In this document: positions 15,561-37,394 of the stretch, in pieces
Numbering within the stretch: position 1 is the first letter of the stretch
Layout: the number at the start of each line of letters is the position of its first letter
Assembly (NCBI RefSeq): GCF_002946835.1
Contig: NZ_CP026652.1
Location: 2,852,001 to 2,916,000 of the forward strand
From: Streptomyces dengpaensis
GTDB lineage: Bacteria > Actinomycetota > Actinomycetes > Streptomycetales > Streptomycetaceae
Direction: 5' to 3'
Length of the DNA stretch: 64,000 nt
Position numbers and translations under genes: made by a program
Notes under the pieces: generated by a model
What the model was told of the DNA's origin: nothing
Databases searched by the model: none
Seen by the model: only the letters and a program-made list of their open reading frames with translations

Positions 15561-18500
15561 TCAGGTTGTCTGGGGTTCGAAGTCCCAGGAGGGGCGTTGG
15601 CGGTTCCGGGCGTCCCGTGTGCGGGGGTGGTGGGGGCCGAGGGTCGCTGTCAGACCGTCCAGGGCGATGTTCTCCACCCGCTCGGCGTCCTGACGCTTGC
15701 CGGTGGCCCGCAAGTCGGCGGCCTGCGCGATGCGCGCGGACAGGGTCAGTGGATGCAGGGGGCCAAGGGCCTCGACGGCTCGGTCCGCGGTGTCCAGGCT
15801 GATCAAGAGGGCCGCTCGGGGGCCATCCGCGAGGGAGCGCCCGGCGGAGGCGTTGAGGGCGCAGCCGAGCGTCCACGGGTGGTCGGCTCCCACCGCCCGC
15901 TCCATGACGGCCAACGCGTGGTCGGCCAGGGCATGAAACTCCTCTCCTTCGCCCACCGCACGCAGGATCAGGGCCTGGTTGGAGTGGGCCCCGGCTACGT
16001 ACGGATGCGCGGGGCCGAGCATCCGCTCGTAGCGGGCGACAACCGACTCCCCGGCCTCCCGCGCCTCGGCGAGATCCCCGTGATCCCGTGCGAAACAGCT
16101 GCGGATGGCGGAGAAGATCAGGCTCAAAGGGTCGTCCCCTCCGACAACCCGCTCGCCGCGTTCGCGGATGGAGGCGAACAGGGCATCGGCCTCGGTGAAC
16201 TCCCCCGCCTGGTAATGGCACATGGCCAGGTTGTGCTCGGCCTGCAGGGTCTGGGGGTGATCGCGGCCCATCTGCGCACGGTGGCGTTCCACGCAGCGCT
16301 CCTGAACGGACAGGGCCTCCCGCACCTGCCCCAGCAGGCGGAGATCGATCGCGTAGGACGTCTCGGAGAGAAGTGTCCACGGGTGACGGGGGCCCAGGAC
16401 CCGGTCGCGGGCGTGCAAGGTGCTCCGGTCGGTGTCCCGCGCGCCGTCGTAGTCGCCGAGCAAGCGCAGCGACACGGCCAGGTTGTTCCGCGCCGCGAGG
16501 GCGGCCGGGTGGTTCTCGTCGCCCATGAGCTCCGCGTAGGCGTCGTACACCTCCCGCGACAGGCCGTACGCCTCCTCGTAACGCCCCAGCGCCCGCAGGT
16601 CCGCGGCGAGGCCGCTCGCGGCTCTCAGGTATGGCCGCAGACGATCCCCTCGTCCGGCGATCCGGTGACGCTCGGCCGCGGCGCGGCTGACGGCCTCGCT
16701 GTGCCGGTAGTCGCCGACCGCGCGCAGCAGGTTGGCGTAGTGGTGGCCGAGGTCCCACAGGCTGGAATCGTCGGAGTCGAGATGGGCCTCCCAGACGGGG
16801 ATGGCCTGTTCGGCGAGGCGGAGACCAGTGCCGTACTCCCCGGCGAGGTAGAGGTGGCGCAGGCAGTCCACGACGAGGGTCCGCACGGCCGGGGCGGTGT
16901 CCCGCAGGGCGTTCGCGTACTCCAGGTGCGGAACGATCTCGGCGTAGGCGGGCCATGTCTCCGGGTCGCCCGGCGTGGCGGGGGCTGCGGCGGCGAGCGC
17001 GGCGCGGGCCGCGGCGGCGCATTCCTCGGCGGCCTCGCCCGGCATGTCCTGGCGGATGATCTGGTGCACCATGCGGTGCAGGTACAGGGCCGTCTCCCGT
17101 GACTCCAGCCGGACCACGGAGTACTGGGCCAGCCGCCGAACCGTCCTGTCCCACAGCTCCGGGTCGTCGATCAGCCCGGCCAGGGGCTCCGGTCGTTGGT
17201 CCTCCGGTACGCCCCTGAGAAGACGTACGGGGATCGAGCCCGGTGCGAAGAACGCGCACAGGCGGAGCAGATCGACGGACTCGGGAGCGATCTCGCGCAG
17301 TCTGTTCAGCAGGATCGCCCAGGCGGTCCGAAACGCGACGGGAAAGGCCGCGGAGACCGCGACGACGTCGTCCCCGGTGCCGCGTTTCAGCAGGGCGATG
17401 TACTCCTGGACGGGCATGTCGGAGTCGCTCAGCCAGCCGGCCGTCTGGTCGAGCAGGAGGGGCAGGTCTTCCAGGGCTTCGGCGAGCTGGTCCGCCTCGT
17501 CCTCGGTGAGTCGGGGGGCGCGGCGGCGGATGAAGGCGATGGACTCGCCGCGTTGGTAGAGCGGGACTTCGCTCAGGGCGGCATCGTGGCGCGCCCAGTC
17601 GGAGTTGCGGGTGGTCATCAGGACATGACCGGTCCCGGTCGGCAGGGTGTCGGCGATGATGTCGGGGTCATCCGCGCCGTCCACGACGAGCAGCCAGCGC
17701 CGGTACGGCTCGCCGCGCCGCAGCGCATGGTGCACGGCGCGGATGCGTTCGCCGTACTCTTGACGGGTCCTCAGGCCCAGTGCCGGGGCGAGTTCGGCGA
17801 GACGCTCGCGGAAGGTGGCGCGCCCGTCGGCGCTCACCCACCAGATGACGTCGTACTCGTTGGCGAACCGGTGGGCGTACTCGGCGGCCACCTGCGTCTT
17901 GCCCACACCTGACATGCCATGCAGCGCCACCACGCCGGATTCCGTGTCGTCGAGCAGCTGGCGCACGTTGCTGAGCAGCGCCTCACGACCGGTGAAACGG
18001 CTGTTGCGGCGCGGCACCCCGCCCCACACCTCGGGGGGGTCGTTGGGGAAGCGGACACGAGGTCGACCGCTCTCGTCCGGCACGGGCCCGGTCGGCAGAC
18101 CCAGGCGGACCAGCAGACGTCGCTCGGCCTCCCGGGCGTCGACGCCGTACAGGTCGGCGGGTTCGAGTGCGGCGGTCATGGAAGGCAGGGGCGACGAGGT
18201 GATGCTGACCGCCGCGAAGCGGTCGGCGTTCGGGAGGACGACCTCACGCAGGGCCGTGTTCCAGTCGTCGTCACTGCCCGGGCCAGGCTGGAAGTACCAG
18301 TGGCTGAGGACCAAGAGCGCCGTCCCCGGCGGCAGGAGGAGGTCGCGCAGCTCGTCCGCCATCGGCCTGCCCGCCAGCGGTTCCCAGCGCAGCGGCGTCA
18401 CGACCAGGCCGCGCCGCTCCAGCCGGTCCGCGATCCACGCGGCCCAGGCCCGGTTGCATCCGGCGTAACTGATGATGACGACCGGGCGGCCGGTCAGCGG

Positions 18501-19019
18501 TGGGCTGAGCACCGGCCGGGTGGTGACGTCGGCCGGCCGCTCGGGAGCGTGCTCCAGCGGCTGCGGCCGGTACGGTGCGGGCCGGGCAGCCCGGGCGCGC
18601 ACGACCTCCGCGAGCTGTGCCGCCGGGGCCCGCCCCGGCTCCCGTTCCCGGATCTCCGAACGCAGCTCGGCCTTGCGGACGGGCACGCCCCACTGGTTGC
18701 TGACCGTCAGCCACAGCGCGGCGGGGCCAGGGATGGTGCCCGCGGAGACGCGGAAGGCGGCCGGGCCGTAGGTGCCGCCGAAGCGGTGCAGGACCACGCT
18801 GGGGTCGTCGAGGGCCGTGCAGATGAAATGCGGGGAGCCGTCGAGGGCGACGGTGAAGGTGAACTCCTCGTCGGGATAAGGCCATTCGGGCCCACCGTCT
18901 CCTGCGGTCAGCGGTCCGCGCAGGTCGACGGTGACGAGGTAGTCGCAGTCCGTCTCGGCGCGGTGCGGCCAGGCGACGACGGGTTCGATGAGGAGGGGGC
19001 GTTCTTCGGGGGTGGTCAC
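15561..19019 (-). CDS. TIR / NB-ARC / TPR STAND protein, FxsT-like, with extra N-terminal domain
   Basis: A 1152-residue protein and last gene of the 22-kb train. Residues 1-130 form a beta-rich domain I do not recognise, absent from the paralogue at 23630-26641. A TIR-like domain follows near 178-310 (VVIISYAGCNRAWAAWIADRL, LLVLSHWYFQ). Then come an NB-ARC module with Walker A HGMSGVGKTQ near 370 and Walker B LLVVDGADD, MHD-like ALYLHRMVH, and TPR-type helices from about 680 to the end. The pattern matches the FxSxx-COOH-associated TPR family. STAND proteins oligomerise on sensing and activate an effector; here TIR may be an NAD-consuming or signalling output. GTG 19019 overlaps the CHAT stop codon (GTGA). 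Confidence 0.88.
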   Translation of the reverse strand: MTTPEERPLLIEPVVAWPHRAETDCDYLVTVDLRGPLTAGDGGPEWPYPDEEFTFTVALDGSPHFICTALDDPSVVLHRFGGTYGPAAFRVSAGTIPGPAALWLTVSNQWGVPVRKAELRSEIREREPGRAPAAQLAEVVRARAARPAPYRPQPLEHAPERPADVTTRPVLSPPLTGRPVVIISYAGCNRAWAAWIADRLERRGLVVTPLRWEPLAGRPMADELRDLLLPPGTALLVLSHWYFQPGPGSDDDWNTALREVVLPNADRFAAVSITSSPLPSMTAALEPADLYGVDAREAERRLLVRLGLPTGPVPDESGRPRVRFPNDPPEVWGGVPRRNSRFTGREALLSNVRQLLDDTESGVVALHGMSGVGKTQVAAEYAHRFANEYDVIWWVSADGRATFRERLAELAPALGLRTRQEYGERIRAVHHALRRGEPYRRWLLVVDGADDPDIIADTLPTGTGHVLMTTRNSDWARHDAALSEVPLYQRGESIAFIRRRAPRLTEDEADQLAEALEDLPLLLDQTAGWLSDSDMPVQEYIALLKRGTGDDVVAVSAAFPVAFRTAWAILLNRLREIAPESVDLLRLCAFFAPGSIPVRLLRGVPEDQRPEPLAGLIDDPELWDRTVRRLAQYSVVRLESRETALYLHRMVHQIIRQDMPGEAAEECAAAARAALAAAAPATPGDPETWPAYAEIVPHLEYANALRDTAPAVRTLVVDCLRHLYLAGEYGTGLRLAEQAIPVWEAHLDSDDSSLWDLGHHYANLLRAVGDYRHSEAVSRAAAERHRIAGRGDRLRPYLRAASGLAADLRALGRYEEAYGLSREVYDAYAELMGDENHPAALAARNNLAVSLRLLGDYDGARDTDRSTLHARDRVLGPRHPWTLLSETSYAIDLRLLGQVREALSVQERCVERHRAQMGRDHPQTLQAEHNLAMCHYQAGEFTEADALFASIRERGERVVGGDDPLSLIFSAIRSCFARDHGDLAEAREAGESVVARYERMLGPAHPYVAGAHSNQALILRAVGEGEEFHALADHALAVMERAVGADHPWTLGCALNASAGRSLADGPRAALLISLDTADRAVEALGPLHPLTLSARIAQAADLRATGKRQDAERVENIALDGLTATLGPHHPRTRDARNRQRPSWDFEPQTT

Positions 19020-20314
19020 CGGGCTCCCCCTTCGCGGGCCGTGAGCCGGAGTGTGGTCAGCGGGTGCCCGTAGTAGTGGAACATGAACGCGTACAGCAGC
19101 CGCAGGACCCGTTTCTGGCCCGGCTCGTCGACCCTGCCGTCGTCGTCGCGGATCGGCGGGACGGCGGACGGCGGGCCGAACTCCGCGGCGGCGTGGGCCC
19201 GGAAGGACAGCAGGGTCCGGGAGACCGGGCTGTGCGGGTGTTCGGCCACCTGCTCGACGAGACCACGGACCAGCGCGCGTGCCTCCTTGTCTCCGACCTG
19301 ACCCGTCGTGACGATGCAGCCGCCGGCCCCTTTGCGCAGGAAGAGTTCAGCGAAGCCGCGGAGCGCCTGCTCGCCCTGGGCTCTGTTGAGGACGGCGCGC
19401 CCGGAGTGGCAGGCATTGAGGCAGACCAGGGAGCGGTCGGTGCGCAGGGCGCCCATGGTCTGGCCGTTCAGTTCGGCCCAGGTGCGGTTGCCGAGGGTGA
19501 GGCGCGGGACGCTGTCGCCGTAGGTGCCGTGGCAGCCCATGTAGACGAGGCCGGTGGGCTCGCCGGGGGTGTCGAGGGCCTGGAGGAACGCGGTCATCCT
19601 GGCGTGGAGTTGGTGGGCGTAAGGCCGGAAGACGTGTCCGTCGTCGGCCATCTCATGGTGGAGGTAACCGAGCACGCGGCCACGGCAGTCCGTGGTCTCG
19701 CGGGGCAGGTCGTGCTTGCTGTCGTGGACGGTCGTCCACCGGGACATCACGACCTGCGCGCCCAGCCATGCCTCGTGAAACCCCCGCTGAGGGTCGGCCG
19801 GCAGCAGGAAGAGCTCCCAGGGGAGTTCGTACCCCGTGTCGTCCCACACGAGGAGCCGCAGGTCGGAGCCGTGTCGGGCGCGGATGCGGTTGAACCAGTC
19901 GCCGAGCTCGCGCTGGTTGCGTGACCACAGATGGATGCCGTGCAGGATGTCGGCGGGGTACTCGCCCTTGCGGTGGAGGTTGCCCAGGCCCACTCCGGGG
20001 GCGCTCAGGCGGGGAGACTCGGCCGCGCCGCGGACCGTGAGGTCGCCGCACCAGCCGGTCACGCGGTAGGCGTCGCGCCCCGCGCTGTCCTGGACCCGTA
20101 CGACGTAGAGCACGGCGTCCCCGTCCTGGAGGCGCTGATACGGGTGGGCCGCGGCGCCTCCGACACCGGACGCGGCCTCGCGCGGCTGCCGGAGGTTGCG
20201 CAGGGAGGCAGGGGCACGGCGGGCCGCTTCCTTCAGTCCCGGCAGCGCCGCCCGGCGCGCCATGGCTCCCGTCCCGGACAGCCACCGGGCTCCGTGCTGC
20301 GCCTCAGCGCCCAT
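19016..20314 (-). CDS. CHAT-domain (caspase-like) peptidase
   Basis: A 432-residue protein. After an Ala/Arg-rich N-terminus, the region from about residue 65 is a beta-rich CHAT-associated segment (LRLLVWDDTGYELPWELFLLP). The peptidase core has catalytic His in YMGCHGTYGD near 260 and catalytic Cys in VCLNACHSG near 300, plus GGCIVTTGQV. CHAT proteins are clan CD cysteine peptidases, often activated by STAND proteins, and the downstream neighbour is exactly such a protein, with a 4-base stop/start overlap. The start is uncertain: ATG 20314 is listed; an in-frame GTG at 20356 with GAGGA upstream would close the gap to the preceding gene. Confidence 0.88.
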   Translation of the reverse strand: MGAEAQHGARWLSGTGAMARRAALPGLKEAARRAPASLRNLRQPREAASGVGGAAAHPYQRLQDGDAVLYVVRVQDSAGRDAYRVTGWCGDLTVRGAAESPRLSAPGVGLGNLHRKGEYPADILHGIHLWSRNQRELGDWFNRIRARHGSDLRLLVWDDTGYELPWELFLLPADPQRGFHEAWLGAQVVMSRWTTVHDSKHDLPRETTDCRGRVLGYLHHEMADDGHVFRPYAHQLHARMTAFLQALDTPGEPTGLVYMGCHGTYGDSVPRLTLGNRTWAELNGQTMGALRTDRSLVCLNACHSGRAVLNRAQGEQALRGFAELFLRKGAGGCIVTTGQVGDKEARALVRGLVEQVAEHPHSPVSRTLLSFRAHAAAEFGPPSAVPPIRDDDGRVDEPGQKRVLRLLYAFMFHYYGHPLTTLRLTAREGGAR

Positions 20315-20370
20315 GGCGGCGCCGCTCCTCGACGATGCCGGCTCCCGTGACCGCACGGTCCTCGACGGCT

Positions 20371-22152
20371 TCAGCTCCCATGGTCGCCCCGTCCTTCGAC
20401 GACCATGGCTCCGAGCGTCTCCGCCAGCGCGAACGGCAGCTCCCCGTACGGCCGTCGGGCCGCGTCGACGACCGCCACGCGCAGCCTGCCGCGATCCAGT
20501 GCGGCGATCGGGGCGGCCGCGGTGAGGCTGTCCTCGATACCCCGGGCGGCCACGGGTCCGTGCAGGCGGCCGGTGTGGCTGGCCCGCAGCGGAACATTGC
20601 CGCGGCCGTCGGTCACCACGACGAGCCAGGCCTCCGCGAGGGCGCTGCCCTGTCGGCGGAACGCCTGGCGCATTGTCCGAGCCGCCTGTTCGATGCCGTG
20701 GGCCAGCGGAGTGGCCCTCCCCCTGGGCCGGTACAGGGCGGTCATCAGGCGTGGGTCGAGCACACCGCGCGCGGCGAAGGACTCGGCCCGCAGTTCGTCC
20801 GCCGCGTCGGCGCCGCCGACCTCGATGACGTGGAGGGCCGCGCGCGCGGTGTAGGCCCACTGGAGGAACGGGGTGAGGGCGTCCTGCCAGTCCCAGTCGC
20901 CGCGGCACGTGTGGTCGAGGAGGAGGGTGAGCAGGCGTTCGGGGGCGGGGGCGCGGAGGTTGCTGTGCAGGTCGACGGGTGCGACGGTGAAGTCCTCGTA
21001 GCCCCGGATCCGTTGGTGCACGGCGGCCTCCCGCACGGTGCGCAGCAGCGCGAGGTCCCGCAGATCGTGCGCCCGGCGGGTGCCCACGACCGCGCCGCGT
21101 GCCGAGGCGGGCCCGGAGCGCCGCTGCCAGGGGTTGCGCAGCGGCATGAACTCGCGCAGGGCCACGGCGTCGTCCTCCGGGTACGGCATGCCGAGCGGGG
21201 CACCCGGCGCGGAGCCGACCCCCTCGGCGGGCCCGGACGCAAGCAGCGGCTGCTCCTCCTCCGGGCGGCGGCGCCTGTTGCTCCGGCCCCCTCGGCGGCC
21301 GGTGTCGCCGGGATGCGGCAGCGGTGCGGGCAGCGGGCCGGGCTCCCCGCTGTCGGGACGGTCCGCGGACGGTGCCGGTTCGGTGACACGCAGCCCGATG
21401 AGTCGCGCCGCGTCCTCGCAGTGCGCGGCCGTCACCTCCCGCTGCCCGCCGAGGGTGGCGAGCGCCCGCGCGAGCCGCGCCAGGGCCAGGCTTCTGCGCG
21501 GTCCTGCTCCCGGTCCGAGGATCTCCTGTACGCGGGTGACGGCTTCCTCCGTGGTGGCGGCGAACGCCCCAAGCGGTGCGGCCGAATCCGACGACAGGCC
21601 TTCCGGCACCGTACGCAGCCCGGGCACCGCGAGCCGCAGCGCGAACCGGTCGAGGAGGTGTGGGGTCACCCGGCCCGAGTCCTCCGAGCGGCACACCGCG
21701 AGCCAGCGAGCGCGTGGCCGGTCCACGAGCCGCAGCCCCGGCTGTTCGACGCAGACGACGTCGGCGCCGATGAGCTGCACGGCGGCCCGCATCCCGGCGA
21801 CACTGAGGTGCGCCAGGTCCGGCACGACGGCCAGGGGCGGCGGGCCGGCACCGGCGACGAGAGGGCCGGGGGCGACGGTGAACGCAATTCCGTCGCGGTG
21901 CCGTTCGAGCCGCGAGGTGACCCACAGATCCTCGTCACGGGTGGCGGCGCCGAGCGGGATGCGGGCGGCGGGCGGTCCGGCCGGGCCGCCGAGGATCGCT
22001 GTGAAGAGGCCTGCGACGGGCCGGATCAGTCGCGGCTCCAGGTCGAAGAGCAGCACGCCGGAGAGGGCCGGGTCGAGGGCGGCGCACCGGAAGGCGCGCT
22101 CCAGCCGCCGCGCGTCGTCGGGCGGTTCGAGGGCCGGGGTCGAGGTGGTCAT
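20371..22152 (-). CDS. BchD-like AAA-lid/vWA protein with degenerate MIDAS
   Basis: A 593-residue protein resembling the D subunit of Mg-chelatase-type ATPases. The first 230 residues are an inactive AAA-like half with no P-loop (ALSGVLLFDLEP, LDRFALRLAVPG, an AAA-lid-like helical block around 190-250). An acidic/basic linker follows, then a vWA-like C-terminal half. The first MIDAS element, normally DxSxS, reads LLDHTCRGD, while the later VVVTDGRGN motif is kept. With the BchI-like ATPase encoded just upstream (start 9 bases after its stop) it probably forms a two-subunit ATP-driven remodelling machine. Target unknown. It precedes the CHAT gene. Confidence 0.8.
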   Translation of the reverse strand: MTTSTPALEPPDDARRLERAFRCAALDPALSGVLLFDLEPRLIRPVAGLFTAILGGPAGPPAARIPLGAATRDEDLWVTSRLERHRDGIAFTVAPGPLVAGAGPPPLAVVPDLAHLSVAGMRAAVQLIGADVVCVEQPGLRLVDRPRARWLAVCRSEDSGRVTPHLLDRFALRLAVPGLRTVPEGLSSDSAAPLGAFAATTEEAVTRVQEILGPGAGPRRSLALARLARALATLGGQREVTAAHCEDAARLIGLRVTEPAPSADRPDSGEPGPLPAPLPHPGDTGRRGGRSNRRRRPEEEQPLLASGPAEGVGSAPGAPLGMPYPEDDAVALREFMPLRNPWQRRSGPASARGAVVGTRRAHDLRDLALLRTVREAAVHQRIRGYEDFTVAPVDLHSNLRAPAPERLLTLLLDHTCRGDWDWQDALTPFLQWAYTARAALHVIEVGGADAADELRAESFAARGVLDPRLMTALYRPRGRATPLAHGIEQAARTMRQAFRRQGSALAEAWLVVVTDGRGNVPLRASHTGRLHGPVAARGIEDSLTAAAPIAALDRGRLRVAVVDAARRPYGELPFALAETLGAMVVEGRGDHGS

Positions 22153-22161
22153 GGGGCGGGC

Positions 22162-23121
22162 TCAGCCTGCATCGAAGAGGTCCTTGATCCGGGCATGGTC
22201 GTCGGGCCCCCAGTCGAACGTGCCGCCGTGGGCCGCCTCGGGCCTGCGATGACGCAGGGCGGGCGGCAGGACCCGGAGCAGGTGCCGCGGCTCTACGCGC
22301 TCGGCACCTTCCAGGGCGGCGAGGGCGCGGGCGGCATGGGTGGCGACGATCTCGCCGCGCTGTCCCACGGCGTCGAGCCGCCCGGCCGCCTCGGCGCACA
22401 GCCGCAGGACGGGGTCGGGGACGTCGACCTGTGCGAAGCGCTCCCGGGCGGCTCGAAGACGGTCGCGCACGGCGGCGTTGTCCCGTTCGGCATCCGTCAG
22501 CCACTCCGAGGTGTCCCGGGCCCGTGCTTCCTCGAAGGCGAGGACGGTACGGATCATGCGGTGCCGGGCGTCCGTGTCCAGGTCCGCGGCGGTGACCATG
22601 AGCCCGAAGCGGTCCAGCAACTGGGGCCGCAGCCCGCCCTCTTCCGGGTTCATGGTGCCGACAAGACCGAAGTCGAGTTGCCTGGCGGCGGCCAGCCCCT
22701 CGCGCTGCACGGACAGCTGGCCGGTCGAGACGACGTCGAGGATGATGTTGACGACATGGTCGTCGAGGAGGTTCACCTCATCGACGTAGAGGATTCCCTT
22801 GTCGTGCGCCTCCTCAAGGAGCCCGGGCTGTTCCAGCGTCTCGCCGCGCATCAGGGCGTCGAGCCGCCAGCCTCCGACGACCCGGTCGTCGGTGGCGTTG
22901 ATGGGCAGGGTGACCGGTAGCTCGCCGTGCGCCATCAGGGCGAAGGCGCGGACGAGCGTCGACTTGGCGGTGCCGCGCTGCCCGGCCATGAGCACGCCGC
23001 CGATGCCCGGCGCCACATGGTTGAGCTCCAGGGCCAGCTTCAGGTCGTCCTGTCCCACGACACGGCTGTACGGGAGGATCGACGCGCCGGGGCGCCCCGC
23101 CTCGGGTGCCGTGCCGCTCAC
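22162..23121 (-). CDS. BchI/MoxR-type AAA+ ATPase
   Basis: A 319-residue AAA+ ATPase of the Mg-chelatase I / MoxR clade. Walker A is MAGQRGTAKS near residue 45, followed by the insertion VVGGWRLDALMRGETLEQPGLL; Walker B is ILYVDEVNLLDDHVV, with sensor region LVGTMNPEEGGLRPQLLDRFG and an AAA-lid toward the C-terminus. GTG 23119-23121 overlaps the stop of the preceding small gene (GTGA), implying translational coupling. A genuine chelatase is unlikely because no H subunit or pigment genes are present. A chaperone-like role with the neighbouring vWA protein is inferred. Confidence 0.9.
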   Translation of the reverse strand: MSGTAPEAGRPGASILPYSRVVGQDDLKLALELNHVAPGIGGVLMAGQRGTAKSTLVRAFALMAHGELPVTLPINATDDRVVGGWRLDALMRGETLEQPGLLEEAHDKGILYVDEVNLLDDHVVNIILDVVSTGQLSVQREGLAAARQLDFGLVGTMNPEEGGLRPQLLDRFGLMVTAADLDTDARHRMIRTVLAFEEARARDTSEWLTDAERDNAAVRDRLRAARERFAQVDVPDPVLRLCAEAAGRLDAVGQRGEIVATHAARALAALEGAERVEPRHLLRVLPPALRHRRPEAAHGGTFDWGPDDHARIKDLFDAG

Positions 23122-29680: not shown

Positions 29681-29707
29681 CAAGGTGAGATCACCATTAA
29701 CACCTTG
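29681..29707. promoter_or_regulatory. Inverted repeat between fxsA and fxsB
   Basis: CAAGGTG (29681-29687) and CACCTTG (29701-29707) are perfect complements separated by 13 bases. The spacer contains part of a further near-palindrome, GGTGA-GA-TCACC. The element sits about 45 bases after the fxsA stop, in the 204-base gap before fxsB. It could be an operator or an RNA hairpin that lets fxsA be made in excess over fxsB. Confidence 0.5.
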
Positions 29708-29750: not shown

Positions 29751-29987
29751 TCAGAAGGAGTTGTTGAACCCCCAGAGCATCTCGCTGGGCTGGCCCGCCC
29801 GTTCTCTCAGCTCGGTCAACACCTCGGCCAGTACCGGGTGCTGGATCGTCCTGAGGTCCGCCAGGTCGAGCTCCAGCAGGTCCGGCAGACTCGGCGAGCC
29901 CAGCGAATCCGGCAGAACCGGCGAATCCGGCAGCCGCTCCCCCGCGATGCCGACGTCGGCATCGCGTGCGTCGTCCCGTGCGCCCAT
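29751..29987 (-). CDS. fxsA: FxsA, FxSxx-COOH-type precursor peptide (variant C-terminus)
   Basis: A 78-residue peptide starting at ATG 29987 directly behind GGGGGAGGAC. The N-terminal half is acidic and Pro/Ser-rich; the conserved helical block LPDLLELDLADLRTIQHPVL and the following AEVLTELRE match the leader type of FxSxx-COOH peptides. The C-terminus is WGFNNSF-COOH: Phe lies five residues from the end as expected, but the third position from the end is Asn rather than Ser, with Ser one place later. Followed by fxsB and the HExxH gene, it is the likely modified substrate. The ORF is open upstream, but only this ATG has a good ribosome-binding site. Confidence 0.9.
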   Translation of the reverse strand: MGARDDARDADVGIAGERLPDSPVLPDSLGSPSLPDLLELDLADLRTIQHPVLAEVLTELRERAGQPSEMLWGFNNSF

Positions 29988-30046: not shown

Positions 30047-33000
30047 TCACTCCAGCTCGGCCAGCCGCTGCGCCGTCTGCCGGGACGTCGGCTCGCCCGT
30101 GCTCACGGCGCCGTCCGGCAGCCTGGACCACTCGGCCCGGGCGGACCGGTAGGCCTCGCGTGCGGCGCGCGGGCGCGCCGCCGCCTCGTAGGACATACCC
30201 CGCCAGTGGTGCGCCTGCGCACCCAGCTCCACGGCCTCCTGGCGGAGTCGGTCCGTCTCCGCCCCGTCCTCGGCCTCGCGCGCCGACTCCGCCGCCGAAC
30301 GGAACGCGTCGACCGCCTCGTCGAGCCGCGCGGGCCGGCCCAGGCTCTGGTAGGCCTCGAACTGCGCCTGCCCGAGCTCCAGCCAGCAGCGCGCGGCCGT
30401 CAGCGGCTCGCCGGCCTCCAGCGCCGCGAGGCCGAAGAGGTGTTCGGCCTCCCGCAGGTCCACCCGGTCGCCCCGGGCCTGGTAGCGCAGCATCAGGGCA
30501 CGCCCGAGCAGCAGCAGGCGGTACGCCAGCTCCGCGCTGCCCGCCGGTGTTTCGGTGCGGCAGTCCCGGAGCACCCGGATGGCCTGGGACAGCGCCTCGG
30601 GCGTACCGGGAGCGTTGGCCGGCACTGCCCGGCGCAGCAGCACCTCGCCCCATTCGGCGAGGACGTCGGCATGCGCGGGGGCGTCGCGGGGCACGCCGCG
30701 CGAGGCCTGCTCGAACTGTTCGGCGGCTTCCTGGAGTTCGCGGGGGTCGCCCGACTCGGCGTACCGCGCCGCCTTGATGCGCCCGGCGCGCACCAGCAGC
30801 GCGGCGCGCAGCCCCTGTTCACGGGCCCCCCGCTCACGGGCCAGCCGCAGCGCCTCGTCGACGTGGGCCTGGGCGTCGTCCAGCCCGCCGCCCGCCTTCA
30901 ACAGCGCGTCGACGAGGTCGAGGAGGATGCGGACGCGGTCGCGCGCGGGGCCCGTGTCGTCCTCGGGGCCCGCTTCCAGCGCGGCGCGCAGGGAGTGCGC
31001 CCCCTGTTCCGCGTACAGGCGGGCCTGTTCGTGGTCGGGCGTGGCGGTCGACAGGCGCAGCAGAACGCGGCCGTGGGCGAGCGGGAGTTCGGGCGGGCGG
31101 TGGCGCCGGTCGGGCCAGGCGTCGGCGAACGCCTCCAGCATGCCGACCGCGCCCTGGAGCAGCGCACTGTCGCCGCCGAGCCGCCACTGTGCCTCCAGCG
31201 CCCGCACCCGCTCCAGGGTGAGCCGCAGGGCCTCGCGCGCCTCCAGGTCGGGCGCGGCGCAGGCGACCGCGTACTCGCGGTCGGCGCGGCGCAGCAGGTC
31301 GAGCGCGCCGCGCCAGTCGCCGCGCCGCCTGCGGTCGGTGGCGGCGGCGCGCAACACCCGTGCCAGTACGGCGCGTTCGCGCAGGGCGCGCGGGTGCGCG
31401 ACGGCCCGCTCGGCCGCCGCCTCCGCCTCGCGCAGCAGCTCGGCGCCGCCCTGCACCTCCCACAGCCGCAGCAGACAAGTGGCGTACTCGGCCCACAGCT
31501 CCGGGTCGGCGCCGACGGGCTGTTCGTGTTCGGTGGCGCCGCGCAGCAGCTGTACGGCGTCGATGAGGTCCTGCACCATGCCGTCGGTGTCGAACTGACC
31601 GACCAGGGAGCGGGCCCGGATCACCGCCGCGTGGGTCGGCCGCTCGCCGGCCGGCTCCGCGCGCCCCCGGCCGCCGTACCCCGCGAACTCTTCCGGCAGC
31701 GGCATATAGCGCTCCAGGACCCGCGCGGCGACCTCGGCGAAGGGCTGCGGGACGAGGGTGTCCCCGCCGTTGTCACCGTTCTCGCCGTTCTCGCCGTTCT
31801 CGCCGGGATATCCCGCGCCCTGCGCGTACGGCCTCCCGGAGCCGCCTTCGCCGAGCTGCGCGAGCGCCAGGGCCGGGAAGTTGGGGCCGCCCTTGCCGAA
31901 GCGGTGCTCGATGTACTCCGAACAGTGCTTGAGCACCAGCATGGCCTCGTCGCGGCCCAGCGGCGACAGCAGCGCCTCCTGTACACCGGGCAGGAACTCG
32001 TACCACCGGGCGTCGTCCGCCCCGTAATCCTCCGCCTTGGGGCGCCACACCAGGCCGCTGAGCAGGACCTCGGCCAGCTCGGACGGCCCGGAGTCGGGCA
32101 GCATGGTGCGCTGTACGAGCTGCATCACCGGGAGATAGAGGGGCGCCGCCGCCAGATAGCCGGCCAGGCGGCCCGCGCTCTTCGAGGTGTTGGAGCGGAA
32201 CCGGCTGACCAGTTCGAGCGCGGACAGCCGGCGCCCGGCACGGGAGGCCTGAGCGGGCGGATGGTCGTGGCGCACCCAGCCGACCGCTCCGGCCACGGGC
32301 CCCGCACCGGCCCCGGACAGCAACCGTGCCCAGGCGCCGAGCGCGGTGGGCTCCGGGGGCAGTACGGGCACGGGAAGCACACCGGAGCGGGCCTCCGGCG
32401 GGATGCCGGTCGGCACGCGGACCTTCAGCGTGGCCGCACCCGCGAGAGCCCCGCCCCGCGTCAACTCGCCGTAGGAAACGGGCAGTCGGGTGCGGTTCCA
32501 CATGCGCTGCGGCAGCGGCTGGAGTACGGCGACGGGGCCGAGGCCCGACAGCTGGTGCAGCAGCCGGTGGGCATGGCCGCTGTGCCACAGGGCGCCCGCG
32601 CAGTCGCTGACCAGGAGGGTGATCCGGCGGCCCGTGGGGTCGCGCAGCCGGTCGGCGGAGTGCAGCGGGGCCGCCTGGAGTTCGGGGCTGCGGCTGACGG
32701 CGGGCCCGCCGTCCGGGCCCTGGTGCAGATAACTGACCTCGATGTCCCAGAAGGCGCCCAACTGGCCGAATATCTGCTCCAGTTCGCCGAACATCCGGTC
32801 CCACACCCGCATCGACGAGGAGGCGTCCATCACCAGCTGGAGCGCCGCGTCGGCCCGGGTCACTCCGCGGAACACCGGCAGGACCAGGCCGCCCGCCCGG
32901 GCGCTCCGTTCCGCGGTCGCCGCCTCGTCCAGGGTCGTGCGCAGCGGCGGCGCCGCGGTCCGGTAGCCCTGCAACGGCCGTAATGCGCGCTGGAGTTCGA

Positions 33001-33454
33001 GCGGCGCCGGGAACGCGGGCGCGGCGGGCACCCCGATCGGCAGCGCCATCGCTCCCCGGCCCAGTCCGCGCGGCGCCCCGTCCCGCGACGCGGGGTACAG
33101 AGCGACGCTCCGCTCGGCCGCCCCGCGCCCGTCCTGCCGCGGCTCGGGACCCGGGACGGGTGGGCCCGGAACGGCGTCACGGGCATCCGGACGCTCGGGG
33201 GCCGGGGCGCTCCCGGCCCCCGGCCGGGCGGCACCGGACGGCCGCGCACGCCCTTGCTCCCCCTCACGGGCACTCGGCGGGCTCGACCAGCGGGCCAGCC
33301 ACAGCGTGTCGCACAGCTGGCCGACATCGGGATCCAGCCCCATCTGCCGCATCCTGGCGATGAGTTCGGCGATGGGGTCGCCGCCGGAAGGCACCCGTCC
33401 GCCGCCGGACGATTCGGCGGGATCAGGCCCGTGGCGCGCCGCGGCGTCAGGCAT
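30047..33454 (-). CDS. vWA / TPR protein with SAV_2336-type N-terminus
   Basis: A 1135-residue protein. The first 45 residues (DPIAELIARMRQMGLDPDVGQLCDTLWLA) match the short helical domain that defines SAV_2336-related proteins. A Pro/Arg-rich linker follows. A vWA domain begins near 203 with an intact MIDAS, LVMDASSSM, and continues with TLLVSDCAGALW. A helical domain (ALELVSRFRSNTSKSAGRLAGYLAAAPL) precedes a GEN-repeat linker near 550-565 and long TPR-like helices to the end. It pairs with the MoxR ATPase encoded seven bases upstream (GAGGTGA ribosome-binding site). In ternary MoxR-vWA-VMAP systems the vWA protein carries or recognises the target. Confidence 0.85.
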   Translation of the reverse strand: MPDAAARHGPDPAESSGGGRVPSGGDPIAELIARMRQMGLDPDVGQLCDTLWLARWSSPPSAREGEQGRARPSGAARPGAGSAPAPERPDARDAVPGPPVPGPEPRQDGRGAAERSVALYPASRDGAPRGLGRGAMALPIGVPAAPAFPAPLELQRALRPLQGYRTAAPPLRTTLDEAATAERSARAGGLVLPVFRGVTRADAALQLVMDASSSMRVWDRMFGELEQIFGQLGAFWDIEVSYLHQGPDGGPAVSRSPELQAAPLHSADRLRDPTGRRITLLVSDCAGALWHSGHAHRLLHQLSGLGPVAVLQPLPQRMWNRTRLPVSYGELTRGGALAGAATLKVRVPTGIPPEARSGVLPVPVLPPEPTALGAWARLLSGAGAGPVAGAVGWVRHDHPPAQASRAGRRLSALELVSRFRSNTSKSAGRLAGYLAAAPLYLPVMQLVQRTMLPDSGPSELAEVLLSGLVWRPKAEDYGADDARWYEFLPGVQEALLSPLGRDEAMLVLKHCSEYIEHRFGKGGPNFPALALAQLGEGGSGRPYAQGAGYPGENGENGENGDNGGDTLVPQPFAEVAARVLERYMPLPEEFAGYGGRGRAEPAGERPTHAAVIRARSLVGQFDTDGMVQDLIDAVQLLRGATEHEQPVGADPELWAEYATCLLRLWEVQGGAELLREAEAAAERAVAHPRALRERAVLARVLRAAATDRRRRGDWRGALDLLRRADREYAVACAAPDLEAREALRLTLERVRALEAQWRLGGDSALLQGAVGMLEAFADAWPDRRHRPPELPLAHGRVLLRLSTATPDHEQARLYAEQGAHSLRAALEAGPEDDTGPARDRVRILLDLVDALLKAGGGLDDAQAHVDEALRLARERGAREQGLRAALLVRAGRIKAARYAESGDPRELQEAAEQFEQASRGVPRDAPAHADVLAEWGEVLLRRAVPANAPGTPEALSQAIRVLRDCRTETPAGSAELAYRLLLLGRALMLRYQARGDRVDLREAEHLFGLAALEAGEPLTAARCWLELGQAQFEAYQSLGRPARLDEAVDAFRSAAESAREAEDGAETDRLRQEAVELGAQAHHWRGMSYEAAARPRAAREAYRSARAEWSRLPDGAVSTGEPTSRQTAQRLAELE

Positions 33455-33461
33455 CAGCGGG

Positions 33462-34493
33462 TCACCTCGGGCGGTCGAGTCGCTGGATGAGCAGGTCCGC
33501 GAGACGGTCACGACTCGGCGGGGCGGCCGCGTCGACGAGGTAGATGGCGTTCAACAGCTGGTCGGCGGCGACGAGTTCGCTGCGCGAGCGCTCAAGGAAG
33601 TGGGCGATGAGGTCGTCCCCGGCCCGCGCGGCCTCGTCGCCGAGGTGGGCGCGTACGAAGGTGGCAAGCCGCCTGTGGTCCGGACGCTCCAGTTCGAGGT
33701 GGATGCAGCGGCGCATCAGCGGGGCCGGGAAGTCGCGCTCGCCGTTGCTGGTGAGCACCACGAAGGGGAACGTACGGCAGCGCACCCGGCCGTCGCGCAC
33801 CAGGGCCTTGGTGCCGTCGGCGGTGAGCACCTCGGCCTCGCCGCCGGGCAGCCGGTCGGCGACGCGCTCCAGCTCGGGGATGGCGAACTCGCCTTCTTCG
33901 AGCACGTTGAGGAGGTCGTTGGGCAGGTCGATGTCGCTCTTGTCCAGCTCGTCGATGAGCAGTACGCGCGGGGTGTCGGAGGGCAGCAGTGCGGTCCCGA
34001 GGGGACCGAGCCGGATGTAGCTGCCGATGCCATCGACGGAACCGGGGGCGCCGGGAGTGGCGGGATCGGTGCCCTGCGGCGCGGCGGCGATCTGCACGTC
34101 CTGGAGCCGGGCGATCGCGTCGTAGTGGTAGAGCCCGTCCTGCAGCGTGGACCGGCTGACGATCGGCCAGCGCAGCACATTGCCCAGGCCCAGTTCGTAC
34201 GCCACCGAGTGCGCGAGCGTGCTCTTGCCCGCGCCCGGGCTGCCGGTGACGAGCAGGGGACGGCGCAGATAGAGCGCCGCGTTGATCATTTCGAGTTCCT
34301 CGGCGCCCGGCCGGTGCAGCTCGGCCATGTGCCGGTGCGCGCCCAGCCTGCGGTCCTCGGAGCCGTCGCCGTTCCTCCCGGCCGCGTCCCGGCTCGCGAA
34401 GTCGCGCCACGGGGGCGGGGCCGGGAGGCGGGCCATGCCGTCGTGGGGTTCACCGGCGCCTCGGTAGATGAGCCACTCGCTGGATTCGGTCAT
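33462..34493 (-). CDS. MoxR-family AAA+ ATPase
   Basis: A 343-residue MoxR ATPase. Walker A is VTGSPGAGKS near residue 86, Walker B is VLLIDELDKSD, and sensor 1 is in VVLTSNGERDF; the lid helices (RLATFVRAHLGDEAA) complete the fold. MoxR ATPases act as chaperones for vWA-domain partners, and the vWA gene follows seven bases downstream. ATG 34491-34493 overlaps the TGA of the small repeat ORF upstream (ATGA), so translation of this ATPase may depend on translation of that ORF. Confidence 0.93.
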   Translation of the reverse strand: MTESSEWLIYRGAGEPHDGMARLPAPPPWRDFASRDAAGRNGDGSEDRRLGAHRHMAELHRPGAEELEMINAALYLRRPLLVTGSPGAGKSTLAHSVAYELGLGNVLRWPIVSRSTLQDGLYHYDAIARLQDVQIAAAPQGTDPATPGAPGSVDGIGSYIRLGPLGTALLPSDTPRVLLIDELDKSDIDLPNDLLNVLEEGEFAIPELERVADRLPGGEAEVLTADGTKALVRDGRVRCRTFPFVVLTSNGERDFPAPLMRRCIHLELERPDHRRLATFVRAHLGDEAARAGDDLIAHFLERSRSELVAADQLLNAIYLVDAAAPPSRDRLADLLIQRLDRPR

Positions 34494-34726
34494 TGCCCAG
34501 TCCTCGTCGTCACTCGTCCACCCCGGCCGCCGTCGAACGTCGCCTCACCGTATCGACCGCCGGGGGGCCTCGTCAGGTCCCAAGACGGCCTTATAACAGC
34601 CCACTTGGGCGTTGTCCGCGTGCCACGGGGCAGGGCTGTCCGTGCGCCTCGAGGCAGCGTCGTAGGGGTGCCGCGCGACGGAGTCGTCCGCGTGCCGCGC
34701 GACAGGGCACAGGGCGGTGCGGTCAT
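34490..34726 (-). CDS. 78-residue octapeptide-repeat protein coupled to both neighbours
   Basis: The ORF begins with an ATG that overlaps the VMAP stop (ATGA) and ends with a TGA that overlaps the MoxR start (ATGA), exactly filling what would otherwise be a 229-base gap. After MTAPPCAL come four octapeptide units close to SRGTRTTP (SRGTRTTP, SRGTPTTL, PRGARTAL, PRGTRTTP), then KWAVIRPSWDLTRPPGGRYGEATF and a Gly/Arg tail. It is strongly basic, has no membrane segment, and matches no family I know. It may be a real coupled protein, a low-complexity spacer that keeps ribosomes on the message, or chance. Frame conservation in relatives would decide. Confidence 0.5.
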   Translation of the reverse strand: MTAPPCALSRGTRTTPSRGTPTTLPRGARTALPRGTRTTPKWAVIRPSWDLTRPPGGRYGEATFDGGRGGRVTTRTGQ

Positions 34727-36855
34727 GGCGCCTCCAGCAGGTCCCCGGTCCCGGGCAGGGGCCGGCGTGGATCGTCGTAGAACAGGGCGATTCCGTCCGC
34801 CCAGAAGGTCTCCGGTTTGCCCGCCCGCACCCCGGCACGCAGCGCGTGGACGAGTTCGGGAAGCCGGTCCGCGCTGCCGGCGCGCGCCACGGTGTCGCCC
34901 GCCTGCCGGTGGAACTCCCCGCACACCGCGTCGGGCCGGCCGCGCCAGCGCCGCCACAGCGCGACGCCGTACCCGCCGTGCACGATCCGTACGAGTGCCA
35001 CCGGGTCGTCCTCGAAGCGGTCGTCGCCGTAGCGGCACAGGACCGGGACCGTCCTGTACGGGAAACCGCGCAGGGAATCCGCGGGCGGTACGGGTACCCG
35101 CAACCCGTCCTCGCAGTCCACGACTTCGGCCTTCGCACCGTACGCGTGGAGCCAGCGCCAGCGGGCCTCGCGTTCGTGCTGCTCCTCGTCGGCGGAGGGC
35201 CGCTTCCCGCCGAGGGGGTCGTCCCCGTCGGGCAGCTGCTCCCGGTCGGCGCAGCGCACGACGACGGGCCGGTGGGCGCCGAGCGGGGGTTCGCCGGGCC
35301 CGAGCTGCCAGGCGTCGACGTCGAGGCCGAGCAGCAGATGCGGCAGCGCGACCTGGAGATCCGCGGGCCGGCCGGGTTCGTCGCACTGTCGGAAGGCCTC
35401 CGCGAGCGGCTGCGCGAGGACGCCGGGGAGCTCTTCGAGCGGTGTGCGCTCGCCGTCGCGCAGACGCACCACCTCTCCGGTCGGCCCGCCCACCGAGACA
35501 TGCCAGTCGCAGCGCCCTGGTTCCCAGCCCCGTTGCTCCAGTTCGAGCAGGGCGAAGCGGCGGGGCGCACGGTCGGCGGCGTGCTCCGGGGTGCGCGCCG
35601 CCCGTGCATCCGCCGAGGACGGGTCGCGTGGCGGCAGCCGGAGCCGCTCGATCCACTGCTCGCTCAGCCGACGTCGGTACGCCGGACCCGGCCGGCCCTC
35701 CGCGGTCTGCCGCACCCACTCCCACAGCGCCCGCTCGGCGGCCTGGGTGCCGGGCGTGACGAAGGGGCGCTCGGCGGACATGACCCGCATCGCGTAGTCG
35801 AGGACGAGTTCCAGCGCGGCGTCGTGACGCGACGTCTCGTACAACGCCCCGAGCCCGTCGCGCCAGCCGCGCGGTGCCGGGTGCGGGATCGCCGCCTGAC
35901 TGCCGAGGAGCGATTCGAGCAGGCCGAGCAGGGCGCGCGTGCTCACCGGAGGCGGCAGGTCGGCGAGCCTGCCGAGCAGCTGGGTCCGCTCCTCCGGGCT
36001 GAGGGCGCGCCCGGGCCGCGCTCCGAGCTGGTTCTGGACGTCGGCCCAGGTGCTGCGGTCGCTGTCGGGGTGGCGCTGCCGGTCCCGGTGGTAGCGGTCG
36101 TGGGCGTGGAAGACGGCCTGGTAGCTGTCGTCGTGCTCGGCCCGCACCTCGCCGGCGGGGACCGGCAGCGCCCGTAACTGCTCCACGCCCGTGCAGGTGC
36201 CGCCGAGCCCCCGGTCGGCCTGCGACTTCAGGACACCGACGACCTCTCCGCGTACGGGATCGACCACCGGCCCGCCCGAGACGCCGGGCGGCAGCACGTC
36301 GCCGCCGAGCCGGATCTGCTCGTCGTCGGACCAGCCGCCGAGGGTGCCCTGCACCGTGCACGTCCCGTTCAGCCGGCGCAGCTCCCCGCCGACCACAGAC
36401 CACCCGGAGTAGAAGACGACCGCCTCTCCGTAGTACGCCGCCGGGCGCTCGGTGACGTAGGCGCAGTCGTGGTCGACGGGTTCGCGCAGCCGCACGAGCG
36501 CGAGGTCCGGGGCCGGCCAGTTGCCGCGCAGGGCGGGTCCGGCGTGCTCGGGGATGTCCTGTTCGGGGATGGCCGTCGCCACCTCGCCAGCGACGGCGGA
36601 CGTGCCGCGGCCCGGCCCGGTCTCGTACACCACGGTCACCTCGCCCCCCTCCCCGCTCCGTGCCACATGCGCGCAGGTCAGAACCCAGTTCGGAGCGACG
36701 AAGAAGCCGGATCCGAGGAACGTGCCTGGTTCGTCCAGGGCATACCCGGAGCCCGCGCGATGGATGCGCACCGTCGCCGCCATCACGAGGTCACGCAGGG
36801 CACGGTGAGCGTTTCCGGGGCCGCCCGGTGCGCCCCGGGCGTGCCCGTCCGTCAT
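34723..36855 (-). CDS. Trypsin-like serine protease fused to VMAP-type C-terminal region
   Basis: A 710-residue protein. Residues 20-240 form a trypsin-like domain: catalytic His in VLTCAHVA near 62, Asp in APDLALVRL near 117, Ser in LPPGVSGGPVVD near 200. The usual GDSGGP is altered to GVSGGP. A helical middle domain (ERTQLLGRLADLPPP, RALLGLLESLLG) and a C-terminal domain rich in Trp and charged residues (VVVRCADREQLP, TFWADGIALFYDDPR) match vWA-MoxR-associated proteins. No signal peptide is present, so it should be cytoplasmic. ATG 36855 overlaps the stop of the Trypco1-like gene (ATGA). Likely the protease effector or sensor of the MoxR/vWA module. Confidence 0.87.
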   Translation of the reverse strand: MTDGHARGAPGGPGNAHRALRDLVMAATVRIHRAGSGYALDEPGTFLGSGFFVAPNWVLTCAHVARSGEGGEVTVVYETGPGRGTSAVAGEVATAIPEQDIPEHAGPALRGNWPAPDLALVRLREPVDHDCAYVTERPAAYYGEAVVFYSGWSVVGGELRRLNGTCTVQGTLGGWSDDEQIRLGGDVLPPGVSGGPVVDPVRGEVVGVLKSQADRGLGGTCTGVEQLRALPVPAGEVRAEHDDSYQAVFHAHDRYHRDRQRHPDSDRSTWADVQNQLGARPGRALSPEERTQLLGRLADLPPPVSTRALLGLLESLLGSQAAIPHPAPRGWRDGLGALYETSRHDAALELVLDYAMRVMSAERPFVTPGTQAAERALWEWVRQTAEGRPGPAYRRRLSEQWIERLRLPPRDPSSADARAARTPEHAADRAPRRFALLELEQRGWEPGRCDWHVSVGGPTGEVVRLRDGERTPLEELPGVLAQPLAEAFRQCDEPGRPADLQVALPHLLLGLDVDAWQLGPGEPPLGAHRPVVVRCADREQLPDGDDPLGGKRPSADEEQHEREARWRWLHAYGAKAEVVDCEDGLRVPVPPADSLRGFPYRTVPVLCRYGDDRFEDDPVALVRIVHGGYGVALWRRWRGRPDAVCGEFHRQAGDTVARAGSADRLPELVHALRAGVRAGKPETFWADGIALFYDDPRRPLPGTGDLLEAP

Positions 36856-37394
36856 GCCCGGCCCCCGGCGGAGGCGTCACCGGGGCCGCCGTGCGCCGGG
36901 GCGCCGGGGGACGCGCCCGCGTGCGGAGTGGGCGGGTGCGGGGCCGCCGCTGGATCGGGTGGCGTGTTTTCGCCGGTTCCGGCGGGGGCGCCCGGGTGCG
37001 GGTTCGCGTCGGAGCCGTCGCTTCCGGCGGTGGCGTCGACGTTCGGTGGGGGGCCGCCGTTCCAGGTCAGCGTGACCGTGATGCCCGCCTTGGCCTCGCC
37101 GTCCGCGAGGAGGCCGACCACCTTGCCCGCCTTGGCGGTCAGCTCGATCCCGAACTCGACGCTGACCTCGTCGGGCTTTACGGCGCGCAGGGGTGCGGCC
37201 AGCGAGCGCGCGACGCTGGTGATCACCGACTGCAGGCTCTCCACCTGCGCTTCGACCCGCTCGCCGAACCTCGTGTCCGTGTACGACAGCCCGCCGGACG
37301 GCGCCTCCAGCTCCTCGGCCCCCGAGATCCGGGCCCACACCGGTGTCCCGTCCGGCATCTCGATCCGTGCGATCCGCGTCACTGCGTCACCCAT
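36852..37394 (-). CDS. Trypco1-like (CU044_2847-like) protein, first gene of the island
   Basis: A 180-residue protein. A beta strand with substrate-like start (RIARIEMPDGTPVWARIS) is followed by an acidic loop, a helix (RVEAQVESLQSVITSVARSL), the core VKPDEVSVEFGIELTAKAG and a last strand ITVTLTWNGG. The Pro/Ala/Gly-rich tail is disordered. This fold is described as a trypsin-co-occurring domain, and the next gene indeed encodes a trypsin-like protease, with ATGA overlap. ATG 37394 is preceded by GGGGGATG. As first gene of the unidirectional 22-kb train its upstream region should hold the main promoter. Function is inferred to be adaptor-like. Confidence 0.85.
   Translation of the reverse strand: MGDAVTRIARIEMPDGTPVWARISGAEELEAPSGGLSYTDTRFGERVEAQVESLQSVITSVARSLAAPLRAVKPDEVSVEFGIELTAKAGKVVGLLADGEAKAGITVTLTWNGGPPPNVDATAGSDGSDANPHPGAPAGTGENTPPDPAAAPHPPTPHAGASPGAPAHGGPGDASAGGRA

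Follow-up and report, generated by a model that had tools for sequence, protein, structure and literature searches.

Do the genes that lie leftward at positions 15561-37394 of this DNA form one system, or are they independent neighbours? The DNA is a 64,000-nucleotide stretch of the Streptomyces dengpaensis chromosome (hereafter the window; 2.85-2.92 Mb of an 8.7-Mb genome), and an original prediction from its letters had joined an FxSxx-COOH peptide cassette, two MoxR/vWA modules, two STAND NTPases and two proteases in this fourteen-gene island. From a comparison with related loci, we lean slightly towards reading the island, gating mechanism included, as two AAA+-gated conflict modules that share one peptide cassette. 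The order VMAP, MoxR, vWA, FxsA, FxsB, HExxH, FxsT1 and then a module of five genes is repeated in 15 other genomes, with Trypco1a too in 13 of them, and the arrangement of the island, judged by gene order, therefore exceeds chance. The original prediction had made itself depend on co-occurrence of the modules in relatives, which was found: among 150 genomes (own included), VMAP-C lies within 12 kb for 32/122 FxsB rows, in 31 genomes, by a count that omits the second halves of split VMAP-C rows.

The left half of the island is, by comparison of loci, a separable module that encodes Trypco1, a BchI-like and a BchD-like protein, a CHAT protein and an effector with an N-terminal domain that we call betaN (Table 1). 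To find this module elsewhere, the genomes of 84,980 species were surveyed with patterns derived from an alignment of five BchD sequences; these patterns limit recovery, and the resulting 68 loci (L numbers below) are no census. Two of them, L085 and L086, resemble conventional chelatases and were set aside. In the remaining 66 loci, iterative hidden Markov models (HMMs) built in this analysis located BchD in 66, BchI in 63, CHAT in 62, betaN in 60 and Trypco1 in 43, and many of the misses are contig ends. Where enough of the record was present, CHAT followed BchD in 59/60 loci and betaN in 58/59, the single miss being L085. Trypco1 was found in 40/58 loci with room for it, so that it is apparently an optional member. 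The script counts score L077, L079 and L083 as lacking BchI after anchoring wrongly on a truncated BchD, and the figure of 40/58 misses Trypco1 in L077; the HMMs find both (BchI as a fragment in L083).

According to record titles, the module is carried by Actinobacteria (Streptomyces, Actinacidiphila, Actinomadura, Actinoplanes, Lentzea, Saccharothrix, Nonomuraea, Frankia and others), by Cyanobacteria (Nostoc, Calothrix, Scytonema, Symploca, Leptolyngbya, Brasilonema) and by Sorangium, Herpetosiphon and Anaerolineae (Chloroflexi). Most of these hosts are filamentous or multicellular, a tally made without a control set, in which Prochloron and some metagenome-assembled genomes are possible exceptions. 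The spread is patchy. BchD was detected in 5 of 150 genomes near the window and betaN in 2 of 296 genomes of its class (own included in both), as well as in 15 of 291 genomes of a cyanobacterial class (known centre included). Each matching genome had one betaN except that of the window, which had two, one per module. As far as seen, betaN thus seems private to the module; first-pass scoring covered at most 13 candidates in the two class searches, and extra copies could escape it. The second copy in the window's genome belongs to a paralogous module at L016:8740-16117 (G000:C1:1.168-1.176 Mb), around which no Fxs gene of the window was matched in 35 kb. Its terminal protein is a betaN-STAND-TPR protein fused to VMAP-C, a fusion that appears to tie the chelatase-type module to VMAP systems. 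No description of a BchI/BchD/CHAT/betaN system was found in the open-licence PubMed Central literature on conflict systems and FxSxx-COOH peptides, and the module looks undescribed.

The betaN domain occupies about 110 residues at the start of the last gene and bears the signature HRFGG[TS]YG; across an alignment of 44 sequences, seven residues (P13, W46, E51, R79, G81, Y84 and G111) never change. No Pfam family had its best stretch in the betaN region of the 22 terminal proteins scanned. An AlphaFold2 model gave a nine-strand Ig-like sandwich (mean predicted local distance difference test score 87), which matched many solved Ig-like folds in a generic manner with none standing out, and betaN looks like an undescribed beta-sandwich domain in this model. 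Macroglobulin/complement-type Ig domains were the known group considered for a shared fold. What follows betaN varies widely. Pfam scans of 20 of the 60 terminal proteins revealed CHAT+FHA, NACHT-HEAT, AAA/STAND-TPR (two), NACHT-NCH2 (two), NACHT, AAA, WD40, alpha-amylase (two), TIR (two), EAD7-NACHT-HATPase, nSTAND1+CHAT, CHAT-NACHT-TPR, VMAP-C+NYN+EAD2 and a sub-threshold trypsin, and 2 of the 20 had no Pfam match at all. VMAP-C occurred among the scanned terminal proteins only in L016 and L036, in the effector position; HMM scans found no VMAP-C protein in the window's left module. The alpha-amylase-family domains fused to betaN in L058 and L075 came as a surprise; as candidate effectors they may act on glycogen. 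Protein database searches with three betaN queries (best 120 of 166, 13 of 13 and best 120 of 221 rows) added, among the matches listed, fusions to FGE-sulfatase, GUN4, caspase, cyanophycinase, LexA-type peptidase, metallo-beta-lactamase fold, Roc-LRR, lipoxygenase and nucleoside phosphorylase with VMAP-C. Several of these Pfam names are our assignments from the accession numbers listed. FGE-sulfatase, GUN4, caspase, trypsin and EADs are also named in VMAP systems in the available passages of PMC7159879.

The closest named families of the BchI-like and BchD-like proteins are the cobalto/magnesium chelatase subunits, and the pair could accordingly be imagined to insert a metal ion into a cofactor, as a chelatase or metallation chaperone. 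This is very improbable. The family scores lie far below the NCBIfam cut-offs (272 and 75 bits against 779, 226 against 467 and 50 against 500), for which reason metal-chelatase function was rejected, and the pair has constant CHAT and betaN partners and varied effectors; no family search was aimed at a large BchH/CobN-type subunit. The P-loop reads GQRGTAKS in the window, and a regular expression recovered GxxxTAKS in 34/69 rows and a GK[ST] type in 23, with 12 unread; corresponding tallies for Walker B and for the motif resembling a metal ion-dependent adhesion site are lower bounds, many rows having been missed. The N-terminal motifs of VMAP-type MoxR proteins (WxhapG, PsWRxa) are absent from the BchI-like N-terminus. 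In the BchD-like protein no beta-propeller was found C-terminal to vWA, Pfam returned only AAA_lid_2, and the 593-residue model ends with a vWA-like part, whose assignment is based on TIGR02442/TIGR02031 alignments. HMM scans found no FtsH family among the island genes.

The catalytic motif of CHAT peptidases is a His and Cys pair, which was present in the window and in 60 of the 68 aligned rows in all. Two of the eight rows without it (L028, L029) are split alignments, and five of the other six (all but L055) were scanned. All five, which are cyanobacterial (L044, L056, L062, L073, L084), have an N-terminal PNP_UDP_1 domain (1.6e-28 to 5.3e-24), and their CHAT part still aligns without the catalytic residues. 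VMAP proteins are described as exchanging peptidase and nucleotide enzymes (PMC7159879, in the passages available), and because the swap of peptidase for phosphorylase mirrors this exchange, the CHAT protein is probably the counterpart of VMAP in the chelatase-type module.

The right half of the island is, by its families and gene order, a VMAP ternary system with an FxSxx cassette, a combination that Kaur et al. 2020 (PMC7159879) had reported before. The accessible passages of that paper list an FxSxx peptide, a radical SAM/SPASM protein, a zincin-like protein, the VMAP ternary core and a downstream TIR-AP-ATPase-TPR gene, place the peptide-processing cassette in ~20% of actinobacterial VMAP systems, report a separate TIR-AP-ATPase-TPR gene where the peptide is of the FxSxx type, and propose the peptide as a toxin or amplifying signal; these systems are themselves largely predictions. 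The available passages of PMC10910872 go no further than mentioning vWA-MoxR-VMAP genes near CRISPR loci. The window matches the description component by component, including the cassette with a separate TIR-AP-ATPase-TPR gene. The order VMAP-C protein, MoxR, vWA was present in the window and in 15/15 relatives fetched, the MoxR N-terminal sequences WLIYRG and PPWRDF fit by eye the published motifs WxhapG and PsWRxa, and a pattern search found trypsin motifs like TCAHV and GVSGGP in 13/15 relatives. The vWA-TPR protein had no Pfam match at 0.01. FxsA scored 46.4 bits on TIGR04268 (cut-off 28), and a literal F-x-S-x-x C-terminus was not found: the window ends in FNNSF, and relatives in F[NT]N[AS][FL], FNSAF (L032), FDNAM (L028) or FDNDTP (L029). 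The longer ending WGF[NT][NS][AS][FL] was shared by 16 of 18 main-group loci and the window, L028 and L029 deviating. The HExxH protein could be taken for a further protease, but its family now bears the name alpha-ketoglutarate peptide beta-hydroxylase; the plain-protease reading was rejected, which leaves the trypsin and CHAT proteins as the two clear proteases. HEXXH enzymes hydroxylate peptides and sometimes cut backbones according to the passages seen of a 2025 preprint (PMC12636437), so the peptide-processing role proposed by Kaur et al. may still apply. Two further FxsB genes were observed elsewhere in the window's genome (G000:C1:5958985-5960064 and 6998182-6999267), the former within a 793-residue frame of the length class of fused FxsB-HExxH proteins.

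To quantify the link between the two halves, Fxs linkage was counted for loci that have a betaN match and extend 6.5 kb or more upstream of BchD (L074, with broken frames, was assigned by hand). FxsB was present in 20/21 loci with an FxsT-type effector versus 1/30 with other effectors. The two deviating loci are L066, an FxsT-type locus without FxsB, and L047, a locus with another effector, where FxsB lies downstream in a frame of 767 residues, the length class of FxsB-HExxH proteins. Among the loci surveyed, the peptide cassette is thus tied, by co-occurrence, to a single effector type, FxsT. VMAP, MoxR and vWA were directly upstream in 15 of the 20 FxsB-linked modules (DNA fetched), 13 of these also with Trypco1a. 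VMAP-C was not at the expected distance in L023, L031, L065 and L074; the contig of L024 ends too early for VMAP-C, and upstream of its fxsA there is no gene for a vWA protein. The predicted single joined system stood in so far as the modules co-occur. The second MoxR/vWA pair with CHAT and the FxsT-like protein, however, proved autonomous: it occurs in 29 loci without FxsB in flanks of up to 10 kb. The module as such would therefore need no peptide; the peptide, predicted to serve as signal, trigger or effector, is tied to one type of effector protein.

Much of this linkage is, from the gene neighbourhoods, probably shared descent, because kgd adjoins the island in 18 of the 68 loci as well as in the window. 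A mobile insertion is disfavoured, since the same adjacency makes the island look like a resident locus. Fxs linkage was also found in a second assembly (L065, L074, L077 and G068:C1:8.962-8.969 Mb), which has two FxsB genes, no HExxH match and a distant FxsT branch; for L065 and L074, the flanks contain no kgd and the genome no VMAP-C. Two peptides occur in each of L065 and L077, with C-termini unlike those of the main group (YHEDSPG..., FYEDGPYQL), and one in G068; these endings are perhaps near the YxD-tail type. Because this assembly exists, the coupling of Fxs genes to the module would have arisen or persisted at least twice. These data bear on the idea that the Fxs cassette, the VMAP ternary system and the chelatase module are independent systems that share a defence-rich spot with no joint action. 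Each is indeed found apart (FxsB in 77 and VMAP-C in 84 of the 150 genomes, the module in the 29 FxsB-less loci), and an accidental association can survive at the kgd site through common descent. Nevertheless, we regard this as unlikely, given the strong dependence of FxsB on effector type, the second assembly with its other peptides, and the switch conversion between FxsT1 and FxsT2.

This conversion was seen in the NB-ARC tree, in which the FxsT1 and FxsT2 labels formed no two clades and changed 9 times, at least 7 of the changes being forced by well-supported branches. In L022, L025, L028 and L029, both FxsT genes of the locus were sisters, with FxsT2 on the longer branch. Codon alignment revealed TIR/NB-ARC stretches of 50 codons with 95-100% DNA identity between the two genes in L022, L028, L029, L030, L033 and L068, whereas identity of the C-terminal TPR part was much lower, ~47-80%, in all of these but L022, where it stayed at 65-92%. 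Long exact runs were found in 5/20 pairs (L022 212, L068 152, L030 107, L029 74 and L033 70 bp), all within TIR/NB-ARC. Cross-locus exact runs reach 107 bp between near relatives, which makes the weaker conversion cases indecisive. We read these patterns as recurrent conversion that would keep the switch alike for co-assembly as the sensing arms drift apart; repeated captures could also explain them. Plant paired nucleotide-binding leucine-rich repeat receptors likewise place next to each other two NB-ARC receptors that share a switch and differ in their sensing arms, but the island encodes bacterial TIR-NB-ARC-TPR proteins and the likeness is functional only.

From these parts we infer a mechanism with complex formation, ATP gating, CHAT cleavage, TIR attack on nicotinamide adenine dinucleotide (NAD) and the peptide as TPR ligand, and, by analogy, a role in defence. 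The BchI/BchD pair would form a chelatase-like two-ring remodelling machine that keeps CHAT and the betaN protein in an inactive complex, with Trypco1 as adaptor. A cue sensed by vWA or by the STAND/TPR part of the effector would allow CHAT to be activated by ATP hydrolysis; CHAT would then cut the linker after betaN and thereby free or arm the effector. In the window this is a TIR-NB-ARC-TPR protein, from which an attack on NAD or a cell-death signal is expected. FxsA, after cross-linking by FxsB and probable hydroxylation by the HExxH enzyme, would most likely be the ligand that both FxsT1 and FxsT2 read with their TPR arms, serving as a licensing or cell-to-cell alarm signal. The opposite direction, with the effector part as sensor and the VMAP enzyme as output, was proposed for VMAP systems in the 2024 PNAS paper PMC10907252, in the passages available, and would fit the betaN-STAND/TPR proteins equally well.

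The same parts could instead act in hyphal differentiation, as a developmental or programmed-cell-death device with FxsA as a morphogenetic signal and no anti-phage role. This agrees with the growth habit of the hosts, many of which are multicellular or filamentous, and with the single chromosomal site beside kgd, which looks more resident than mobile. The patchy spread of BchD and betaN among relatives and the free variation of effectors between lineages suit conflict better, and we consider the developmental role improbable. We think it rather probable that the module founds an undescribed conflict class, in which a chelatase-derived AAA+/vWA machine would gate a CHAT or phosphorylase protein and a betaN effector, and to which Streptomycetaceae would couple a cyclophane peptide by means of a conversion-matched TIR-NB-ARC pair.

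Several observations weigh against the gated-module reading. The 20 FxsT/FxsB loci all come from Streptomycetaceae or one unclassified actinobacterium, mostly at one kgd-linked site, and are non-independent. Almost all of the best 120 of 166 rows for the Streptomyces-like betaN query were FxsT-type proteins, given without gene context, so that effectors seem to be exchanged mainly between lineages and less within them. Among the matches listed in fold searches with the BchD model were AAA+ folds (BchI, RavA, MCM) and no vWA chain, and the vWA-like domain has D-x-[ST]-C-x in place of DxSxS. CHAT falls below the Pfam cut-off in L051 (19 bits) and has no Pfam match in L082 and L016, its identity in these three being based on the HMM built here and the retained His/Cys pair. 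The PADLOC matches of the ten proteins scanned were all weak, to AAA or protease models. In the window itself, the longest exact run between FxsT1 and FxsT2 is 25 bp, with no recent conversion. The residue before the TIR Trp was Glu in 23/23 readable FxsT1 rows and non-Glu in 5/25 FxsT2 rows, including the window, where FxsT2 reads DDDW (Asp before Trp) at 18261-18272; our guess is that this residue is catalytic, and the FxsT2 TIR of the window may be weak.

The nearest relatives of the module are the MoxR-vWA ternary systems with iSTAND, FtsH and beta-propeller types (2020) and with iSTAND2 and TERNS3 (2021, PMC8195603). As described in the passages available, these share with it a MoxR-superclade AAA+ protein with a vWA partner, an enzyme-swapping third component, a variable effector and multicellular hosts, and the GxxxTAKS P-loop is common to the island BchI-like protein and the FtsH and beta-propeller MoxR types. 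The island module differs in its chelatase-like MoxR/vWA pair, in CHAT or nucleoside phosphorylase as third component, in the lack of an FtsH or beta-propeller vWA, and in its effectors, which ride on the separate betaN protein and not on the vWA protein. A separate effector gene is an option in TERNS3 and iSTAND2 as well, but via vWA-L (PMC8195603, same passages). Pfam scans of the island proteins listed no TERNS3 or iSTAND2 third-component or vWA-L domain, no profiles of these systems' own having been identified. The passages on the VMAP system in PMC7159879 contain no second chelatase-type module and no second FxsT. Fused radical SAM-HExxH enzymes (ChlBH, discussed in the part seen of PMC12636437) unite the same FxsB and HExxH families, from which a cyclophane and beta-hydroxylation are expected, whereas the island has two separate genes and a precursor ending in WGFNNSF. 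In contrast to magnesium/cobalt chelatase BchI-BchD, the island pair has a peptidase and effectors as partners. We favour reading the module as a chelatase-type subclass within the MoxR-vWA conflict systems and not as a new kind; in Streptomycetaceae it is linked to a cyclophane peptide.

If this is correct, the AAA+-gated systems with variable effectors, on which the immunity of multicellular bacteria is believed to rest, gain one more subclass. The HRFGGTYG adaptor signature would serve as a handle for effector mining, any protein starting with betaN being a candidate, and the tie between a cyclophane peptide and one receptor type makes the long-open purpose of FxSxx peptides directly testable. 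The swap from peptidase to nucleoside phosphorylase in one slot is a natural experiment on signalling by such systems.

The features of the window are collected in Table 1. Re-reading and HMM assignment upheld 13 of the 14 genes reported earlier, and the second small adaptor-like protein was refined to a second Trypco1. The exception is the frame called a small repeat protein, which was rejected and is probably no gene, because it lacks the codon signature; its position-3 G+C is 0.71, versus 0.83-0.91 in ten listed island genes. Four-base stop/start overlaps occur at seven junctions, as predicted, if fxsA starts at GTG 30050; with ATG 29987 there are six, one fewer than claimed. FxsB may start at 29681, 29624 or 29546.

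Table 1. Features of the island and its left neighbour (positions in the window)
Feature	Position	Strand	Evidence
Trypco1a, small adaptor of VMAP system	36852..37394	-	PF19493 7.7e-20; homologue upstream of VMAP in 13/15 related islands
Trypsin + VMAP-C protein	34723..36855	-	PF13365 4.7e-13, PF20028 2.4e-38; TCAHV + GVSGGP motifs
'Small repeat protein' frame, probably no gene	34490..34726	-	codon-position G+C 0.61/0.81/0.71; low-complexity
MoxR AAA+ ATPase, VMAP type	33462..34493	-	AAA_5 1.2e-5; N-terminal WLIYRG + PPWRDF
vWA-TPR protein (SAV_2336_NTERM)	30047..33454	-	NF041121 5.9e-146; DASSS sequence
FxsA peptide precursor, C-terminus WGFNNSF	29751..29987	-	TIGR04268 3.2e-12
FxsB radical SAM/SPASM cyclophane synthase	28329..29681	-	TIGR04269 423 bits (cut-off 370), 6.8e-127
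HExxH protein, predicted alpha-ketoglutarate peptide beta-hydroxylase	26806..28332	-	TIGR04267 6.3e-49; HELQH motif
FxsT1: TIR-NB-ARC-TPR	23630..26641	-	NF040586 4.5e-258; TIR_2 1.5e-16; NB-ARC 4.7e-9
Trypco1b, first gene of chelatase-type module	23118..23522	-	PF19493 1e-15
BchI-like AAA+ ATPase, P-loop GQRGTAKS	22162..23121	-	TIGR02442 7.2e-81, TIGR02030 5.3e-67 (both below cut-off); bpMoxR 2.6e-6
BchD-like: AAA+ domain without P-loop + vWA-like domain	20371..22152	-	TIGR02442/TIGR02031 alignments
CHAT caspase-like peptidase	19016..20356	-	PF12770 5.7e-9; start 20356 or 20314
FxsT2: betaN + TIR-NB-ARC-TPR effector	15561..19019	-	NF040586 8.6e-251; TIR_2, NB-ARC, TPR
betaN domain, ~residues 1-107 of FxsT2, HRFGGTYG signature	18699..19019	-	44-sequence alignment; beta-sandwich model
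kgd (2-oxoglutarate dehydrogenase), convergent, left of island	11591-15487	+	family assignment

The nearest relatives of the window proteins are from Streptomyces records. To the right of the island lies a 272-residue frame without family, and a DUF4097/LiaG-like protein followed by a PadR-family regulator is encoded at 38901-40881 on the forward strand. On the left side, the kgd substrate 2-oxoglutarate is the expected co-substrate of the HExxH enzyme, which is probably a coincidence.

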